A program made the translations under genes and the position numbers. The notes beneath the pieces are model-generated. The model was not told the DNA's origin. It searched no databases and saw only the letters and a list, made by a program, of their open reading frames with translations. Positions 33,247-41,617 of a stretch of DNA of 64,000 nucleotides are shown here, in pieces. The DNA comes from Arcobacter vandammei. Lineage in GTDB: Bacteria; Campylobacterota; Campylobacteria; Campylobacterales; Arcobacteraceae. Where the stretch lies: contig NZ_JADKPZ010000010.1 of the NCBI RefSeq assembly GCF_016106035.1, positions 1 through 64,000 on the forward strand, given 5' to 3'. Each line of letters begins with the position of its first letter. Within the stretch, counting starts at the first letter, position 1.

Positions 33247-33261
33247 TGATAATTGTTATCA
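33247..33261 (+). promoter_or_regulatory. Fur-type box upstream of the imelysin operon
   Basis: TGATAATTGTTATCA has inverted 6-base arms (TGATAA / TTATCA) around three bases. It fits the 7-1-7 style Fur operator (TGATAAT-n-ATTATCA) at nearly every position. It lies 63 bases upstream of the first imelysin gene, in the only promoter region of the five-gene set. Confidence 0.75.
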
Positions 33262-33283
33262 TTTTAAGTAAAGTCAAAGTTTT

Positions 33284-33310
33284 TTTTTGATTTAATTTCC
33301 AAATCAAAAA
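33284..33310. repeat. Hairpin in the imelysin 5' UTR
   Basis: TTTTTGATTT (33284-33293), seven-base loop and AAATCAAAAA (33301-33310) form a perfect ten-pair arm. It ends just before the ribosome site AAAGGA of the first imelysin gene and follows a run of nine T. It could influence ribosome access; a terminator on the plus strand is unlikely because no T-run follows. Confidence 0.5.
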
Positions 33311-33323
33311 TAAAGGAATTTTT

Positions 33324-34676
33324 ATGAAGTTTGGAAAAAAAATATTAGTAAGTTTATCACTTTCTGCTGCTTTAGCTTTAAGTGCATCAGCTAATCAAAA
33401 AAGTGAAAATAGTTCTACAATTCAAGTAAAAAGTAACTCATCATTTCTTGAAAGTTATGCAAATATTGCATTAGACAACTATAGTAATGCTTTAAAAGAT
33501 GCAAAAGCTCTTCAAGTTGCTATTGATAGTTTTGTAGCTAATCCTACTCAAGAAGGTTTAGACAATGCTAAAAAAGCTTGGTTACAATCAAGAGAATCTT
33601 ATGGAAGTACAGAAATATTTAGACTTTCAAATGGTCCAATTGATGCAGAAGAGGGATGGATTGCAAGTTCTTATGGAAGCTTAGAAGGGCAAATTAATGC
33701 TTGGCCATTAGATGAAAATATGATTGACTATACAATTGATGCAGATGGAAAAAGAACAAGTGGAAATATTATTGATACTGTTGGAAAATTTAATCCTGGT
33801 GGTGAAGAGTCAAAAGAGGTTGATGTTACAAAAATCACTGTTGAAGCTTTAACTGATTTAAATGAAAATGGTGGAGAAGCAAATGTAAGTACAGGTTACC
33901 ATGCAATTGAGTTTTTACTTTGGGGACAAGATCAAGATTATAACAACTTCTTAGAAGATAAAGTTACAAATGGAGCAATGACAGCAGGTCTTAGACCTCT
34001 TAGCGATTTTACAACAGATGCAAATAAAGATAGAAGATTAGATTACTTAAAGGTTGTAACAGAAAAATTAGTTCAAGATTTAGAAACTGTTAAAAGTGCT
34101 TGGGAAAAAGATATAAAAGGTGATGCAGGACTTTATAGAGCTGCACTTTTAGGAAAAATCAAAGGTAAAAATAAAGATAGAAATCTTTCAAAAAAAGAGG
34201 CTATGCAACAAATCATTGCTGGAATGGGTGTATTTATAAAATCTGAATTAGCAAATGAAAGAATTGCTGTTGCAGTTTTAACTCCTAGTGAAGAAGATGA
34301 ACACTCTTGCTTCTCTGATAATACTCATAGAGATTTAGTAAAAAATTATGAAGGTTTCAAAAATATTTTAACTTCTACTTATAATGGAAAAAAATATGGT
34401 GAATCTTTACTTGACTCTTTAAATAAAGATGATAAAGATAGAGTTTTAAAATTAATGTCTGATATTGAAGAAAAAATTGCAAGTGTAGATAAAGTTGCAA
34501 AAACTGAAGCTCACTTTGATTATCAAATTAGACCAGAAAATCCTCAATCAAAAGTTTTAGTAAAACTTAAAAATGAGCTTAGAAAACTAGGTGATGAGAT
34601 GGTAACAGTTGCAAAAGCAAATAATATCAAATTAACTGAAGATGATGTTACGGATCCTGAAGAGACAAAACTATAA
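33324..34676 (+). CDS. Imelysin (M75-family) periplasmic iron-related protein
   Basis: This 450-residue protein has a signal peptide (residues 1-23, ending ASA). The imelysin hallmark GYHAIEFLLWGQD (191-203) carries the GxHxxE motif. Imelysin proteins such as IrpA and ICMP are iron-regulated and periplasmic or lipid-anchored; the M75 domain of EfeO is related. Their exact chemistry is not settled; they are thought to bind iron or haem. It is the first gene after the Fur-type box and only two bases from the next gene. Residues 285-450 are highly charged and helical. Confidence 0.92.
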   Translation: MKFGKKILVSLSLSAALALSASANQKSENSSTIQVKSNSSFLESYANIALDNYSNALKDAKALQVAIDSFVANPTQEGLDNAKKAWLQSRESYGSTEIFRLSNGPIDAEEGWIASSYGSLEGQINAWPLDENMIDYTIDADGKRTSGNIIDTVGKFNPGGEESKEVDVTKITVEALTDLNENGGEANVSTGYHAIEFLLWGQDQDYNNFLEDKVTNGAMTAGLRPLSDFTTDANKDRRLDYLKVVTEKLVQDLETVKSAWEKDIKGDAGLYRAALLGKIKGKNKDRNLSKKEAMQQIIAGMGVFIKSELANERIAVAVLTPSEEDEHSCFSDNTHRDLVKNYEGFKNILTSTYNGKKYGESLLDSLNKDDKDRVLKLMSDIEEKIASVDKVAKTEAHFDYQIRPENPQSKVLVKLKNELRKLGDEMVTVAKANNIKLTEDDVTDPEETKL

Positions 34677-34678
34677 AG

Positions 34679-36037
34679 ATGTCTAAAAGTTTAATCATAA
34701 AAGCCCTTGCAATATTATCTTGCACAGGGCTTTTTGCTTTTAACAACAGTGAAAAATATATATCAAATAATAAAGATTCAAAACTATTATTAAAACAAAT
34801 TGATGGCTTAAATGATGAAGAGAAAGATACTTTTATGCTTGGTAGAAGTTTTTTTAATATTCCTTGGGTAAAAGCTCCTAGTGTTACAACAGCACGAGAT
34901 GGTTTAGGTCCACTTTTTAATGCAAATTCCTGTATCTCTTGCCATCCAAATAATGGTAAAGGCAAACTCCTCAATAAAGATTTCACAGTTTCAAGAGCAT
35001 TGGTTGCTAGATTATCAACAAACAATAAAGTAGAAAATCAAGAAGATATTTTGTTTAAAAAAGGTTTTGTTCCACATGAAGTTTATGGGGAGCAACTTTC
35101 GATTAATGGTATTTTTGGAGTTCCTTTTGAAGGAAATATAAAAGTAGAGTTTGAAGATAAAATTGAGCTTTTAGATGATGGAGAAAAGGTTATTTTACAA
35201 AAACCAAAGTACTCTTTGGAAAATCTAAATTATGGATCTTTGGATGAAAATTCAGTAGTTTCATATAGAATGGCTCAAAGTTTAAATGGAATGGCTTTAA
35301 TTGACTTAATAGCTGATAGTGATATTTTAAAAAATGAAGATGAAAATGATAAAGATGGTGATGGAATAAGTGGAAAAGCAAATTTTGTATATTCACCACT
35401 TACAAAAAAATATGAATTAGGAAAATATACTTGGAAAGCTAGTGTTTCAAAACTAAAAGAGCAAGTTGCCTTTGCTACTTCAAATGATATAGGGCTTACA
35501 ACTTCTATTGTTGTAGATGAAAAATGTACAAAATTTCAAAAAGAGTGCCTAGAAGCTCCAAAACCAAAAGATAAAATAGATTTACCAGATAATAGACTTG
35601 ATGCTATGAGTTTTTATCTAAAAAATCTAAAAACTTATAGTGCAAATAAAGATACAAAAGAGTATAAAGATGGCTTTATTATATTTGAGAGTTTAGCCTG
35701 TAGCAAGTGCCATATAAGTAGTTTTCAAACAAAATTAGGTTTTGAAGTATCTCCTTATTCTGATTTTTTACTCCATGATATGGGAGAAGATTTAGCTGAT
35801 AATAGAGTTGAATTTAAAGCAAATAAAAGAGAGTGGCGAACAGCTCCACTTTGGGGAAATGCACTATTTGAGAAGATAAATGGTGAGAAACCTAGACTTT
35901 TACATGACGGACGAGCTAGAAGCTTTGAAGAGGCAATTCTTTGGCATGGTGGAGAAGCAAATAATAGTAAACTTGCTTACAAATCTCTATCAAAAGAAGA
36001 TAGAGAAAAATTAATTAAATTTTTAGAGGAGTTATAA
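34679..36037 (+). CDS. Di-haem c-type protein of the DUF1111 (COG3488) family
   Basis: The 452-residue protein has a signal peptide with a possible lipobox-like LSCTG region (residues 10-17). Two c-type haem motifs, CISCH (85-89) and CSKCH (341-345), lie far apart, as in the MauG/DUF1111 group. An EF-hand-like DENDKDGDGISG loop (221-232) may bind calcium. DUF1111 proteins are repeatedly found next to imelysin genes in other bacteria, as here, and are annotated as thiol oxidoreductase-like without proof. It overlaps the next imelysin gene by one base (TAATG). Confidence 0.9.
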   Translation: MSKSLIIKALAILSCTGLFAFNNSEKYISNNKDSKLLLKQIDGLNDEEKDTFMLGRSFFNIPWVKAPSVTTARDGLGPLFNANSCISCHPNNGKGKLLNKDFTVSRALVARLSTNNKVENQEDILFKKGFVPHEVYGEQLSINGIFGVPFEGNIKVEFEDKIELLDDGEKVILQKPKYSLENLNYGSLDENSVVSYRMAQSLNGMALIDLIADSDILKNEDENDKDGDGISGKANFVYSPLTKKYELGKYTWKASVSKLKEQVAFATSNDIGLTTSIVVDEKCTKFQKECLEAPKPKDKIDLPDNRLDAMSFYLKNLKTYSANKDTKEYKDGFIIFESLACSKCHISSFQTKLGFEVSPYSDFLLHDMGEDLADNRVEFKANKREWRTAPLWGNALFEKINGEKPRLLHDGRARSFEEAILWHGGEANNSKLAYKSLSKEDREKLIKFLEEL

Positions 36038-36981
36038 TGAAGAGAATAGTCGCTCTTTTTTTACTATTTGCTGTAAGTTTATATGCAAATAGTTCAATTT
36101 TCCAAAATATAGTGGAAAAAGTTTCAATAGTTGATACACAAAAAGCTATAGATGATGCAAAGATTTTACAAAAAGATATAAATGATAAGAATTTTAAAAA
36201 TTTTATACAATCTTGGAAAAAAGTTGAAGCAAATTATCTTGCAGGTGAAATAGATAGTGATTTTTTAGATATGCCAAGATTTATAGATGTTTTTAATAAT
36301 CTAAAAGAGGATTTAAACTCTCAAATGAAAAGAGCAATTGAAAGTAGTAGTGATATAAAAGTAGCCCTATTTAAAAACTCTTTTAAAACAGTAAATGCTT
36401 TAGAGTATGTTTTATATTCAAATAAAGATTTAAGTCAAAGAGAGAAAGATATGGCTGTTGAGATTTTAAACTCAATTGTATCTTATCTTGAAAAGATAAA
36501 AAAAGCCTATGAAAATTATCTTGCAAATCCTACAAAAGAAGCGTCTGAAGAGAATGCAATAATAATAAACTCTTTGATAGCATCTTCATATAGATTAAAA
36601 GAGTGGAGAGTTGGAAATCCTGCAGGTCTTTCAGCAAAATATAAAAATGATGCAAAAAATAATCGTGCTGAATATTTTTTAAGTCAAAGCTCATTTGATG
36701 CAATAATAGCAATTTTAGAGGCTCAAAAAGAGTTAATAGAAGAGAAAAGTTATAAAAACTTAAATACTTTGGCAAAAGAGAAAAATGCTTTAAATGATTT
36801 AAATTTAGTTTTAGAAAATATTGAATTAGCTAAAAAAGAGTTAAAAACTCTACCAAAAGATGATTTTACAAATGCTTTAAAACTTTTTGAGATTATTTCA
36901 AAAATTCATGATTTGTATTATGTAACAATTATTGAAAAATTAGGACTTAAACCTGAAATTTTAGATGCTGATGGTGATTGA
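36037..36981 (+). CDS. Second imelysin family protein, shorter, motif altered
   Basis: The 314-residue protein has a signal peptide (MKRIVALFLLFAVSLYA). It has the helical imelysin fold, with KEWRVGNPAGLSAKYKND-type and LNDLNLVLENIELAKKEL segments. The position equivalent to the GxHxxE motif reads TVNALEYVLYS (118-128): the glutamate is kept, but glycine and histidine are Thr and Asn. It may therefore bind metal differently or be a structural partner of the first imelysin. It shares a TTGA overlap with the sterol-desaturase-type gene. Confidence 0.82.
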   Translation: MKRIVALFLLFAVSLYANSSIFQNIVEKVSIVDTQKAIDDAKILQKDINDKNFKNFIQSWKKVEANYLAGEIDSDFLDMPRFIDVFNNLKEDLNSQMKRAIESSSDIKVALFKNSFKTVNALEYVLYSNKDLSQREKDMAVEILNSIVSYLEKIKKAYENYLANPTKEASEENAIIINSLIASSYRLKEWRVGNPAGLSAKYKNDAKNNRAEYFLSQSSFDAIIAILEAQKELIEEKSYKNLNTLAKEKNALNDLNLVLENIELAKKELKTLPKDDFTNALKLFEIISKIHDLYYVTIIEKLGLKPEILDADGD

Positions 36982-37937
36982 TTTTGGAGCTTCTTGCACT
37001 TGATTTTTTAACAAACCCAAATAAAAGAGTATATTGGCTCTATTTGTTGAGTTGCTTTTTTTTAGCTATCTTGTACTTTTATTTCACAAAAAAAAGTACA
37101 AGAGTAATAAGCTCTTCAAAACTTTGGCTACATCCTAGTGCAAAGCTAGATTATATTTACTTTTTTTTATCAAATTTGGTAAATATTTTACTTATAATAC
37201 CTTTTGTTTTAAGTGCAAAAAGTGTTGCTTTATTTATAAATAAGAGTTTATATAGCTATTTTGGGTTTTTTGAAACTTTTAGTTTCTCTTATTTTCAAAT
37301 TACAGTTTTATATACTATTGCTATTTTTGTTTTTAGTGATTTTACAAGATATTGGCTTCATAGATTTTTGCATACAATCCCTATTTTATGGGAATTTCAC
37401 AAGGTTCATCATAGTGCAAAAGTTTTAACACCTATTACTTTTTATAGAGTTCATTTTGTTGAAAACTTTTTATTTGGGCTTAGATATGCTCTTAGTATTG
37501 GTTTTGTAACAGGAGTTTTTATCTATATTTTTGGTGCAAAAATAAATATATATATGGTTTTTGGAGTAAATATTTTAGTCTTTATAACTTCAATTTTTGG
37601 TTCAAATTTAAGACATTCTCATGTGCCATTTGCATATTTTTCTTTTATAGAAAAGTGGTTTTTATCTCCAAAACAGCACCAAATACATCACGATAAAAAA
37701 CATTTTAATAAAAATTATGGTGGTTATATTGCTATTTGGGATAGAGTTTTTGGAACTTTAGCTTTATCAAAAGATGTAAAAGTTTTAAAATTTGGAATAA
37801 GAAAAAATCAGATGAGTGAGTATAAAAGCATAAAAGATTTATATTTTAGACCATTTGTAAATCTATATAAAAAAGGAGTTTCTAGTGAAAAATTTAAAAT
37901 TGGGTTTAGGAATAATAGTATTAAGTCAAATACTTAA
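36978..37937 (+). CDS. Sterol-desaturase / fatty-acid-hydroxylase superfamily membrane protein
   Basis: This is a 319-residue protein with four or more membrane spans and the full histidine cluster of the di-iron hydroxylase superfamily: HRFLH, HKVHH (about 132-152) and HQIHH (about 236-240), plus H at RHSH. These enzymes use a di-iron centre at the membrane surface to hydroxylate lipids. In this operon it may act on a membrane lipid or on a metal. The start is TTG at 36978 in a TTGA overlap with the preceding stop. It overlaps the next gene by 53 bases. Confidence 0.88.
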   Translation: MILELLALDFLTNPNKRVYWLYLLSCFFLAILYFYFTKKSTRVISSSKLWLHPSAKLDYIYFFLSNLVNILLIIPFVLSAKSVALFINKSLYSYFGFFETFSFSYFQITVLYTIAIFVFSDFTRYWLHRFLHTIPILWEFHKVHHSAKVLTPITFYRVHFVENFLFGLRYALSIGFVTGVFIYIFGAKINIYMVFGVNILVFITSIFGSNLRHSHVPFAYFSFIEKWFLSPKQHQIHHDKKHFNKNYGGYIAIWDRVFGTLALSKDVKVLKFGIRKNQMSEYKSIKDLYFRPFVNLYKKGVSSEKFKIGFRNNSIKSNT

Positions 37938-39015
37938 TGCAAATGATATTTCAAAAGAGGAGCTAGGTCGTACACTATTTTTTGATGTAAACTTATCAAA
38001 AAATAGAACTCAAAGCTGTGCAACCTGTCACAATCCACAAGCTGGATTTATAGATGATAGAGATAATGGTGTAAAACAAATGGCATCTTTGGGAGATGAT
38101 CTGAAATCTTTGGGAGATAGACAAGCTCCAACAGCTTCTTATGCAAAGTTTTCTCCAAATTTTCATTTTGATGAGAAAAAAGGCTTCTATAAAGGTGGGC
38201 AATTTTGGGATGGAAGAGCAGCTACTTTAGAAGAACAAGCAGGTGGTCCACCACTAAATCCTATTGAAATGGGAATGAAAGATGAAAAAGAGGTAGTAAG
38301 TAGATTAAAAGAGAACTCTTTTTATGTAGAAAACTTCAAAAAACTTTTTGGAGATGATATTTTTAAAGATGATTTAAAAGCTTATGAAGCTATGACAATT
38401 CTTATTGGAAGTTTTGAGAGAACTGATGAATTTTCTCCATTTGATTCAAAATATGATAGATATTTAAAAGGCGAATATGACTTAACTCCTCTTGAAGATT
38501 TAGGAATGTCTATTTTCTTTTCAAATAACAATAACTCATGCGCAACTTGTCATATTTTAAAAGGCGAGGGAAAAGCTGGAGAGACTTTTACAAATTATGA
38601 GTTTCATAATATTGGAGTTCCTGTAAATCATGAACTTAGAGAAATAAATGGTGTAAAAGAGAAAGATTTAGGGCTTTTAGCAAATGAAAAAATAAAAAAT
38701 GAAAAAAATAAAAATGAGCAAATAGGAAAATATAAGACTCCAAGTTTAAGAAATGTAGCTGTAACTGCTCCATATATGCACAATGGAGTTTTTAAAGATT
38801 TAAGAACTGTTGTAGAGTTTTATGATAAATACAATAACAAAGATAGAGTTCTAAACCCTGAGACAAAACAGCCTTGGGATGAACCAGAACACAAAGATAC
38901 AGTTGCACTAAAAGAGCTAAAAGCAAATGCTCAAAATGATAGAAAAGTTGATGCTTTGGTTGCTTTTATGAAGCTTTTAACTGATAAAAAATATGAGCAT
39001 TTGCTAGAAAAATAG
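37885..39015 (+). CDS. Di-haem cytochrome c peroxidase (MauG/CcpA family)
   Basis: The 376-residue protein has a signal peptide (KLGLGIIVLSQILNA). Haem sites are CATCH (45-49) and CATCH (219-223). TPSLRNVAVTAPYMHNGVFKDL near 285-305 holds the usual methionine ligand region. Such enzymes reduce hydrogen peroxide in the periplasm with electrons from cytochrome c. The start is GTG at 37885 behind a full AAAAAAGGAG, inside the end of the preceding gene. It is the last gene of the Fur-box operon, ending at a bidirectional terminator. Confidence 0.94.
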   Translation: MKNLKLGLGIIVLSQILNANDISKEELGRTLFFDVNLSKNRTQSCATCHNPQAGFIDDRDNGVKQMASLGDDLKSLGDRQAPTASYAKFSPNFHFDEKKGFYKGGQFWDGRAATLEEQAGGPPLNPIEMGMKDEKEVVSRLKENSFYVENFKKLFGDDIFKDDLKAYEAMTILIGSFERTDEFSPFDSKYDRYLKGEYDLTPLEDLGMSIFFSNNNNSCATCHILKGEGKAGETFTNYEFHNIGVPVNHELREINGVKEKDLGLLANEKIKNEKNKNEQIGKYKTPSLRNVAVTAPYMHNGVFKDLRTVVEFYDKYNNKDRVLNPETKQPWDEPEHKDTVALKELKANAQNDRKVDALVAFMKLLTDKKYEHLLEK

Positions 39016-39020
39016 AGATT

Positions 39021-39047
39021 AAAAAAAGAGCTTAGGCTCTTTTTTTA
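39021..39047. terminator. Bidirectional terminator, shared with the nhaA stop
   Basis: AAAAAAAGAGC (39021-39031) and GCTCTTTTTTT (39037-39047) are exact reverse complements. The nhaA stop codon (39032-39034) is in the loop, and its last sense codons make one arm. It ends both the peroxidase operon and the zur-nhaA unit. Confidence 0.92.
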
Positions 39048-40255
39048 ACTAAAAGAATAAGAATAACACCAATTATAGCAGCTGTAATTGAACTAGCAAA
39101 AATTCCTAATTTTACAGCACTTACGATACTTTCATCACTAAATGCTAAATGAGAGATAAATATTGACATTGTAAATCCAATACCACCTAAGAAACCAGCT
39201 GCTATAACTTCAGCCCAAGATACAGTTACAGGTTTTATAGCTATTTTTAGTTTTGTTGCTAAATATGTAAATGTAAATATTCCAATAGGCTTTCCAATTA
39301 TAAGCCCTAAAGCAACTCCTAATACAATATATTTATGTGTTAAAACACTTGAAAAATCTATTATAACTCCAGCATTTGCAAAAGCAAAAAGTGGCATTAT
39401 TAAAAAGGCACTAAAATTGTGTAAAGCTAAAGATAATTTATCAAGAGGAGAGTTTTCAAATTCGTAATTTTTATCAAAGTTTTTTGTTTTTAAAGGAATT
39501 GTAAATGCTAATAAAACACCAGCAATAGTTGAGTGAATTCCAGAACTATGTACACAAAACCATAAAATAATACCTAGAACTATATATGGCAAAATTCTTC
39601 TAACTCCAATATAATTTAAAAATATTAAAGCACCATAAACTATTGCACTATATAAAAAGAAAATATAGTTTAATTCACTTGTATAAAATATTGCTACAAC
39701 AATAATTGCACCCAAATCATCAACTACGGCAAGAGTTACTAAAAATAGTTTTAAAGAGATATTTACTCTTTTCCCAAGTAACATTAAAATTCCTAAAGCA
39801 AATGCTATATCTGTTGCCATAGGAACTCCAAATCCAGTTGGGTGTTCTTTATTTAAACTAAGATAAATAATAGCTGGTATTATCATTCCTCCAATAGCTG
39901 CAATTATAGGAAAAGATGCTTGTTTTACACTTGAAAGTTCACCTACAAGCATATCTTTTTTTATCTCCATTCCTACAACTAAAAAGAAAATTGCCATTAA
40001 AACATCATTTACCCAGTGAAGAATACTCATAGAAAAACTGTGATTTGCAAAGCTAATAGAAAGATATGAAGAGAAAAACTCAAAATAAGCACTTGAATGG
40101 CTTGAATTTGCAATATAAACTGCAAAAACTGTAACCAAAAATAGGATTAATCCACTTAAAGTCTCTATTGATACGAAATTTTTTATAAAATCATATCTAG
40201 TTTTTAATTTTGCAATCTGTCTTAATTGTACTCTTGTAAAAATACTATTTTTCAT
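39032..40255 (-). CDS. nhaA: Na+/H+ antiporter NhaA
   Basis: NhaA exports sodium in exchange for protons. The 407-residue protein has 12 membrane spans and the active-site VDDLGAI segment with two aspartates (about 172-178), MATDIAFALGI and the FLGGIGFTMSIFI near 360. The ribosome site AAGGAG of nhaA lies in the CKEC codons of the upstream regulator gene, and the two genes overlap by 11 bases. NhaA is thus co-transcribed with a probable zinc regulator, an odd partnership. Confidence 0.96.
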   Translation of the reverse strand: MKNSIFTRVQLRQIAKLKTRYDFIKNFVSIETLSGLILFLVTVFAVYIANSSHSSAYFEFFSSYLSISFANHSFSMSILHWVNDVLMAIFFLVVGMEIKKDMLVGELSSVKQASFPIIAAIGGMIIPAIIYLSLNKEHPTGFGVPMATDIAFALGILMLLGKRVNISLKLFLVTLAVVDDLGAIIVVAIFYTSELNYIFFLYSAIVYGALIFLNYIGVRRILPYIVLGIILWFCVHSSGIHSTIAGVLLAFTIPLKTKNFDKNYEFENSPLDKLSLALHNFSAFLIMPLFAFANAGVIIDFSSVLTHKYIVLGVALGLIIGKPIGIFTFTYLATKLKIAIKPVTVSWAEVIAAGFLGGIGFTMSIFISHLAFSDESIVSAVKLGIFASSITAAIIGVILILLVKKRA

Positions 40256-40622
40256 TTTTATTACACTCCTTACATTTACCTTTTAGAATTATATTATCGA
40301 TTTTATAGTCATTTAGTGAGAAATTAGGTTTATCATATATACATTCAATTATAGAACAATTTGAACAAATAAAATGAATATGCTCTTTGTCTTTTATCTC
40401 AAAATATCTTTTTTTATCATTTGACTCAAAAGAGTTTATAAGATTTTCTTCTTCGAAATAAGTTATATTTCTATAAAAAGTTGCTTTATCCATAAAAATT
40501 TTATCTTTTAAATCCTCATAGCAAAGAGGTTTATGTGAGTTTACTAATATATCTAATATAGATTTTCTAGCAGTAGTTAGCTTGATATTTGAAAAGTTAT
40601 TTTTTTGTATTGAATTATCCAT
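40245..40622 (-). CDS. Fur-family regulator, probably Zur
   Basis: The 125-residue protein has the Fur fold: N-terminal winged helix (ITARKSILDILVNSHKPLCYEDL, FMDKATFYRNITYFEEENLI) and a C-terminal metal/dimer domain with HIHFICSNCSIIECI and a final CKEC. The two CxxC pairs form the structural zinc site. I favour Zur because it is divergent from a histidine-rich ZnuA-like gene and the shared promoter holds two palindromes. It overlaps nhaA by 11 bases. Fur or PerR remain formally possible. Confidence 0.82.
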   Translation of the reverse strand: MDNSIQKNNFSNIKLTTARKSILDILVNSHKPLCYEDLKDKIFMDKATFYRNITYFEEENLINSFESNDKKRYFEIKDKEHIHFICSNCSIIECIYDKPNFSLNDYKIDNIILKGKCKECNKNEK

Positions 40623-40651
40623 AAATTTAGTTTATCAAAAAAAGCATTAAA

Positions 40652-40670
40652 AATGCCACTAAGTTGCATT
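40652..40670. promoter_or_regulatory. Putative regulator operator 1 (near the regulator gene)
   Basis: AATGCCAC-TAA-GTTGCATT is a 19-bp inverted repeat with one mismatch. It lies 30 bases upstream of the regulator start on the minus strand and 63 bases upstream of the ZnuA-like start, and resembles operator 2 in its TGCnAC-N3-GTTGCA core. Confidence 0.6.
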
Positions 40671-40704
40671 AAAGTTTAAAATGATTAAAATTCTAAGAAA
40701 ATCT

Positions 40705-40719
40705 TGCAACCTAGTTGCA
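40705..40719. promoter_or_regulatory. Putative regulator operator 2 (near the ZnuA-like gene)
   Basis: TGCAAC-CTA-GTTGCA is a perfect 6-3-6 inverted repeat that ends 13 bases before the znuA-like start. Its centre is 51 bp from that of operator 1, close to five helical turns, so two dimers would sit on one face of the DNA. Confidence 0.65.
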
Positions 40720-40732
40720 TATTAGGAAAATT

Positions 40733-41617
40733 ATGAAAAAAATATTATTAATCTTATCTCTATCAATCTCTAGTTTATTTGCAACTGTACAAGAAATTAC
40801 AGTTACAATTTTGCCACAAAAATATTTTGTAGAAAAAATTGTAAAAGATAAATTTAAGATAAATGTAATGGTTCCACCTGGAAGTTCTCCTCACAATTTT
40901 GAGCCAAAACCATCACAAATGAAAGCTTTGTTTAACTCAAAATTATATTTTACAATTGGAGAGCCTAGCGAAAAAGTTTGGATAGATAAATTTAAACAAA
41001 ATGCAAAAAGTACTATTTTTGTTGATACTACAAAGGGTATTGAAAAAATTGAAATGCTTGAGCACTCTCACGATGATCACGATCATGATGAAGACAATCC
41101 ACATCATGAACACCATGAACACGATGAAGATGCTTTAGACCCACATATTTGGCTTGAGCCTAGTTTGGTAAAAACTCAAGCAAAAAATATTTATGAATCT
41201 ATTGTTTTGGCTGATAAAGAAAATGGTGATTTTTATAAAACAAATTATGAAGAGTTTATAAAAGAGCTTCAGATTTTGGATGAGAGTATAAAAAATATTT
41301 TAGAAGCTCATAAAAATAGGGCTTTTATGGTATTTCATCCATCTTGGGGATATTTTGCAAAAAAATACAATTTGGAGCAAATTGCAGTTGAAAATATGGG
41401 TAAAGAGCCAAAACCAAATGAACTTGTAAAGCTAATAACTGAAGCAAAAGAGCATAATATAAAAATAGTTTTTACCTCTCCACAATTTTCAAAAAAATCA
41501 TCTGAAATTTTAGCAAAACAGATAAATGGAACTGTTGTTACAATCGATACTTTGAGTGAAAATTGGAGTGAAAATTTGCTTAATACTGCAAAAAGTATAG
41601 CTAAAAGTTATGAGTAG
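40733..41617 (+). CDS. znuA: ZnuA-like zinc ABC transporter substrate-binding protein
   Basis: The 294-residue periplasmic protein has a signal peptide (LLILSLSISSLFA). It has the cluster A-I landmarks PHNFEPKPSQMKAL with a metal histidine, a histidine/aspartate loop (about 112-132, HSHDDHDHDED then HHEHHEHDED) that is typical of zinc rather than manganese binders, DPHIWLEP, VFHPSWGYFA and the last ligand aspartate in VVTIDTLSENW. The start is ATG at 40733 behind TTAGGAAAA; an in-frame TTG at 40715 lies in the operator. The ZnuB permease and ZnuC ATPase are not next to it, so it is an orphan binding protein in this window. Confidence 0.92.
   Translation: MKKILLILSLSISSLFATVQEITVTILPQKYFVEKIVKDKFKINVMVPPGSSPHNFEPKPSQMKALFNSKLYFTIGEPSEKVWIDKFKQNAKSTIFVDTTKGIEKIEMLEHSHDDHDHDEDNPHHEHHEHDEDALDPHIWLEPSLVKTQAKNIYESIVLADKENGDFYKTNYEEFIKELQILDESIKNILEAHKNRAFMVFHPSWGYFAKKYNLEQIAVENMGKEPKPNELVKLITEAKEHNIKIVFTSPQFSKKSSEILAKQINGTVVTIDTLSENWSENLLNTAKSIAKSYE

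Follow-up and report, generated by a model that had tools for sequence, protein, structure and literature searches.

The window analysed here, a 64,000-nucleotide stretch of an Arcobacter vandammei contig (NZ_JADKPZ010000010.1, positions 1 to 64,000), carries five tightly packed, co-directional genes on its plus strand, preceded by a Fur-like palindrome, TGATAATTGTTATCA (Table 1). All five open reading frames lie where an initial annotation of this DNA had placed them, and their families were confirmed by Pfam: an imelysin (IML1), a DUF1111 protein (DHOR), another imelysin (IML2), a membrane hydroxylase (FAH) and a di-haem protein (MAUG). The gaps or overlaps of at most two bases described in that annotation are found at the first two junctions (+2 and -1 bases) and not at the last two (-4 and -53 bases). 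The start codon of FAH is TTG, while MAUG begins with GTG, behind a good AAGGAG ribosome site, inside the 3' end of FAH. The five-gene unit probably ends at the inverted repeat that follows MAUG. About 1 kb from the cassette lies a second metal locus (window 39032-41617), in which minus-strand genes for NhaA and for a regulator of the Fur family, possibly Zur, diverge from one that encodes a ZnuA-type metal-binding protein.

Table 1. Features of the five-gene cassette and its borders, in window coordinates.
Feature	Position	Strand	Basis
Fur-like operator (putative)	33247..33261	.	TGATAATTGTTATCA; 15-mer palindrome upstream of IML1
IML1, imelysin	33324..34676	+	Pfam PF09375, 2e-69
DHOR (DUF1111)	34679..36037	+	Pfam PF06537, 2e-57
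IML2, imelysin	36037..36981	+	Pfam PF09375, 2e-19
FAH, FA_hydroxylase	36978..37937	+	Pfam PF04116, 4e-24
MAUG, CCP_MauG	37885..39015	+	Pfam PF03150, 4e-46
Probable bidirectional terminator	39021..39046	.	Perfect 11-bp inverted repeat, 4-base loop, T run; read by eye from the sequence

The palindrome has no other exact match in the window, and when the 2.2 Mb genome was scanned with a closely related pattern, this site alone matched it exactly. A lone box in such an AT-rich genome is weak evidence, and its weight comes instead from conservation: in 61 of the family's 69 loci the region upstream of IML1 holds a Fur-like 15-mer that deviates at one position at most, against about 1.2% of single-base shuffles. 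The TGATAA-N3-TTATCA-type box reported initially is thus real, and control of the five-gene unit by Fur is probable. Beyond the family, a similar box with one or two mismatches lies upstream of Sulfurimonas-type cassettes and of the L130 locus, and one with three mismatches in L129.

IML1 is an ICMP/LruB-type imelysin, with a GxHxxE motif at G191-H193-E196, a conserved EDEHSCFSDNTH block and a match to the ICMP structure 7xrx at 4e-55; its alignment contains 178 near-invariant residues among 67 sequences. The signal is of Sec type here and lipobox-like in 44 of the 69 loci. IML2 resembles IPPA/PA4372 and has an asparagine in place of the GxHxxE histidine (T118-N120-E123), with E123 kept across relatives. 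Between the two lies DHOR, a member of a di-haem c-type oxidoreductase family in which both CXXCH motifs (C85/C88/H89 and C341/C344/H345) and two further cysteines, C283 and C290, are invariant; its predicted structure (pLDDT 72) gives weak fold matches to di-haem peroxidases. The cassette therefore presents a GxHxxE imelysin, then DHOR, then a second imelysin with a variant motif. Such an operon, under Fur regulation in Pseudomonas aeruginosa and made up of two imelysins with an "EfeB homologue" (DUF1111), was described by Xu et al. 2011 (PMC3143127) along with the GxHxxE and GxxxxE families; the imelysin-like proteins assayed in that study bound neither haem nor ferric iron specifically, which speaks against the iron-capture step proposed below.

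The fifth gene had initially been called a di-haem cytochrome c peroxidase. MAUG does belong to the di-haem CCP_MauG family, but its sequence places it in the MauG clade and not among plain cytochrome c peroxidases. It matches the Paracoccus denitrificans MauG structures at 2e-104, well above cytochrome c peroxidases, shares about 49% identity with Paracoccus MauG, and has both haem motifs (two CXXCH) as well as equivalents of Gln103 and Glu113. Residue Y313 corresponds to MauG Tyr294, at the ligand position of the second haem, and this tyrosine is invariant in all sequences examined; assignment as a bacterial di-haem cytochrome c peroxidase, for which a Met or His distal ligand is expected, was rejected on this alignment. 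The radical chemistry of MauG is carried by Trp199 and Trp93. An equivalent of Trp199 occurs in none of 68 MAUG clade members as against all three Paracoccus MauG sequences, and 37 of the 68 have another residue at the Trp93 position. Phylogenetically, the Paracoccus methylamine MauG proteins form a branch of their own (support 99/94), and the Campylobacterota MAUG proteins form a separate one (98/99), close to alphaproteobacterial proteins, in a tree whose deep order and root are unsettled. No mau genes adjoin MAUG, and the methylamine dehydrogenase light chain (PF02975) had no match in the genome, in a search that likewise gave none in the control genomes.

FAH is, by Pfam family, a membrane di-metal protein of the fatty-acid hydroxylase/sterol-desaturase type. 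Its histidine clusters (H128/132, H141/144/145, H159, H213 and H234/237/238) are invariant in 18 diverse relatives, in line with the superfamily, whose membrane proteins share a conserved metal site of several histidines. Since these motifs are located in Lys/Arg-rich loops, the metal site probably faces the cytoplasm and not the periplasm. FAH relatives encoded on plasmids reached about 32% identity at best, and the two neighbourhoods opened comprised one without an imelysin and one without annotation.

DHOR is encoded by 72 of the 104 family genomes examined, and its surroundings in these 72 were searched with the five window proteins. All 64 complete loci have IML1, DHOR, IML2, FAH and MAUG in identical order and on the same strand. 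Of the eight incomplete loci, most run into a contig end, carry another kind of DHOR (L058, L073) or have lost part of the cassette. Such a loss is seen in L104 (5778-8912), where IML1 is intact, DHOR is truncated to 215 aa and IML2, FAH and MAUG are missing; a transposase-like ORF of 343 aa adjoins the break. In L076 and L080, from one genus, MAUG is truly absent beside an otherwise intact cassette. Across a sample of 397 Campylobacterota genomes, DHOR was detected in 38, FAH in 38 and MAUG-clade proteins in 46, with all three present in 37. DHOR and FAH thus occur together in 37 of the 38 genomes that have either one (6 of 7 outside the family), an association with a hypergeometric probability of 8e-50 over the 397 genomes and 2e-11 outside the family, both calculated as if genomes were independent of phylogeny. 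Co-conservation of the five families, whose failure the initial annotation had named as refuting its proposal, is therefore borne out. MauG-clade relatives were also found in nine Campylobacterota genomes without DHOR, which, together with L076 and L080, indicates that MAUG is not strictly tied to the cassette. Imelysin-free MauG-clade genes of other Campylobacterota adjoin PhoX-type phosphatase genes (L298:1640-7110, L305:5995-9528).

Several loci elsewhere in the phylum place these genes in other company. In the Sulfurimonas-like loci L125-L128, an outer-membrane beta-barrel-like protein lies between FAH and MAUG (L125:10228-11562, L127:4716-6053) and could possibly be an outer-membrane entry route; a short Fur-family DNA-binding gene (107-112 aa) follows MAUG in three of these four loci. 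In L127 and L128 the cassette is preceded by an ApbE gene, which also occurs on an Ideonella plasmid (L296:2902-6825), where a MauG-like gene, an FMN-binding protein gene and ApbE follow one another in this order. The one genome with DHOR only (L131, 3974-8834) has an imelysin, a long DHOR, Porin_O_P and an FTR1 permease in a row, which is an Efe-like arrangement built with DHOR. In the one with FAH only (L306, 223-13486), lacking any DHOR or MAUG match, FAH lies in a cluster free of imelysins, amid a Fur-family gene, a porin-like protein, an ABC uptake system regarded as iron-type because FTR1 and Fur genes lie beside it, a multihaem protein and an FTR1 permease. Together with the cassette, this cluster ties FAH to iron-type genes in two separate contexts.

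The link between MauG-clade enzymes and imelysin operons extends to Proteobacteria. Among the best 80 MauG-clade loci from public alpha- and gammaproteobacterial genomes, 17 adjoin an imelysin/DHOR/imelysin/DUF1513 operon, with MauG placed before, after, divergent from or inserted into it; in Azospirillum brasilense, MauG, imelysin, DHOR, imelysin and DUF1513 are consecutive. The remaining 63 are solo genes, some on short contigs. Whole-genome searches of 45 solo-MauG genomes (one of which, L225, is actually operon-linked) nonetheless detected DHOR over the cut-off in 44, against a background of 56 in 240 evenly sampled Alphaproteobacteria (Fisher 1e-22, with unequal sampling, the solo set having been drawn from best matches and being rich in a few genera). 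Within the even alphaproteobacterial sample itself, five of five MauG genomes had DHOR (p 0.003 leaving out the centre). The complete imelysin-DHOR-imelysin-DUF1513 set was present in 21 of 23 MauG-containing genomes examined, the other two having a split layout in one case and no separately called second imelysin in the other. A Fur-like 19-mer precedes 7 of 16 solo gammaproteobacterial MauG genes (reversed pattern, 1 of 16; shuffles, 0.3%) and only 2 of 47 alphaproteobacterial ones. A search for shared neighbours of the solo genes returned mostly overlapping antisense frames and lineage-specific genes. In the Marinobacterium imelysin operons, a second, more distant MauG/MbnH-like gene lies past DUF1513 (L245:7027-8154, L246:708-1826).

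These gene-sharing patterns indicate that the five proteins act jointly, most likely in iron acquisition or handling. The best explanation of the whole, which we consider reasonably probable, is a Fur-controlled iron-starvation module in which a known operon has been joined in Campylobacterota by two linked enzymes. What the sequence provides is a conserved unit with intact haem and metal ligands behind a Fur-like box, and from this we infer the following chemistry. Under low iron, Fur repression would be lifted, and IML1, at the outer membrane or in the periplasm, would bind ferric iron or a ferric complex at GxHxxE, while IML2 would serve for docking or as a further binding protein. DHOR would exchange electrons with periplasmic c-type cytochromes on one side and with the iron or its ligand on the other. 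MAUG would use peroxide to reach a high-valent di-haem state and oxidise a component of the module, whether a residue of a partner protein, a bound ligand or iron, and would also clear peroxide at the site of iron handling. FAH, with its probably cytoplasmic metal site, may hydroxylate a membrane lipid or ligand required by the pathway. The released iron would need another transporter to enter the cell: no permease is encoded in the cassette, and the 2.2 Mb genome has neither an FTR1 permease (the control matched in 4 genomes) nor a convincing FeoB, the best match scoring 54 bits, a size expected of other GTPases.

A narrower version of this scheme, modelled on the action of MauG on methylamine dehydrogenase and of MbnH on the copper protein MbnP, would have the MauG-clade enzyme mature a protein of the imelysin-DHOR system by peroxide-driven residue oxidation, making a ligand or cofactor, with the solo proteobacterial MauG proteins doing likewise in trans. 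We regard this version as rather doubtful. Among the Trp and Tyr columns of IML1, DHOR and IML2, compared between MauG-containing and MauG-less genomes, no Trp column separates the two groups, which counts against a MauG-specific Trp client among these three proteins and leaves protein modification as just one among several possibilities for MAUG. The same analogy could be carried over to copper or another metal, with an MbnH-like MAUG acting on an imelysin as its metal-binding client: the best NCBIfam match of MAUG is the MbnH-family model TIGR04039, and the MauG-like copper-homeostasis structure 6e1c is matched at 1e-26. However, the TIGR04039 score of 152 bits lies far under the cut-off of 362.85, true MauG is matched far better, no MbnP was found among the neighbours of the cassette, and both the box and the genomic contexts (FTR1, Fur, TonB/HemP) point to iron, so that we consider a copper role very improbable.

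Quite unlikely, in our estimate, is a peroxide-defence unit, in which DHOR and MAUG would be peroxidases protecting the periplasm during iron stress and the imelysins would merely keep iron from Fenton chemistry. Both enzymes belong to di-haem families with peroxidase relatives, and the Leptospira lruB-DHOR-imelysin operon is induced by lethal H2O2 (PMC7567364). Yet the box is Fur-like, the tyrosine axial ligand follows the MauG pattern, and related operons respond to iron limitation: iron chelation induces the Leptospira lruB operon (PMC13066512), the IurV study lists the Vibrio cholerae genes VC1264, VC1265 and VC1266-7 among the affected genes related to iron (PMC7600106), and the Aliivibrio counterparts of VC1264/VC1265 respond to iron limitation (PMC4324432).

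The place of FAH in the iron-starvation module may also be questioned, and that it is a passenger, a co-regulated lipid hydroxylase for membrane remodelling beside a four-gene iron module, strikes us as rather unlikely. Lipids are common substrates in its superfamily, and the nearest named NCBIfam model is the ornithine-lipid hydroxylase OlsE, albeit far under its cut-off. Its slot, moreover, is the one occupied by DUF1513 in the operons of other phyla; DUF1513, absent from the window cassette, is common in Proteobacteria without being defining elsewhere. Against a passenger stand the near-perfect co-occurrence with DHOR in the phylum and the presence of FAH in the imelysin-free iron-type cluster of L306.

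The initial annotation had suggested an undescribed periplasmic iron acquisition or redox system. A role in iron acquisition or iron redox is very probable. The core operon had already been described, and the FAH metal site is probably cytoplasmic; what appears to lack an earlier description is that the imelysin-DHOR-imelysin operon is coupled to a MauG-clade enzyme and to FAH. In the literature covered, which left aside most subscription journals and preprints, no paper linked MauG or a sterol-desaturase protein to an imelysin operon, none joined imelysin with sterol desaturase or DUF1513, and those naming both imelysin and MauG drew no link between them. Imelysins and DUF1111 proteins are widespread and iron-regulated, and are still without a biochemical function. 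Their co-occurrence with a membrane di-metal hydroxylase and with a MauG-clade enzyme, whose relatives perform defined protein-oxidation chemistry, offers testable partners and reactions, and suggests that MauG-type chemistry may extend past methylamine and copper metabolism to iron starvation. Most worth testing are the links of MauG to the operon across phyla and of FAH to it within Campylobacterota.

Among known systems, EfeUOB, to which the locus had been compared initially, resembles it loosely: both combine an M75-domain protein with haem redox proteins, in a setting linked to iron. Pfam scanning of the cassette returned M75, DHOR, FA_hydroxylase and CCP_MauG domains only, and Efe-type homology was rejected: IML1 has no cupredoxin domain, and the cassette lacks both a DyP-type EfeB and FTR1. 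The MauG of Paracoccus methylamine dehydrogenase shares with MAUG the haem motifs and the Tyr294, Gln103 and Glu113 equivalents, and differs in the tryptophans, Trp199 being lost in the MAUG clade and Trp93 replaced in about half of it, and in its separate branch. The MbnH/MbnP copper pair likewise places a MauG-like di-haem enzyme next to an exported protein linked to a metal, although MAUG falls under the MbnH family cut-off and has no adjoining MbnP. With the imelysin-DUF1111-imelysin operons of P. aeruginosa (PA4370-4373), V. cholerae (VC1264-1266) and Leptospira (lruB), the cassette shares gene order, probable Fur or iron control, exported proteins and a DHOR flanked by two imelysins, one with GxHxxE and one with a variant motif. 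It is thus an extended variant of this known operon and not a new kind of system: the proteobacterial operons mostly end with DUF1513, whereas those of Campylobacterota have FAH and a linked MAUG instead.
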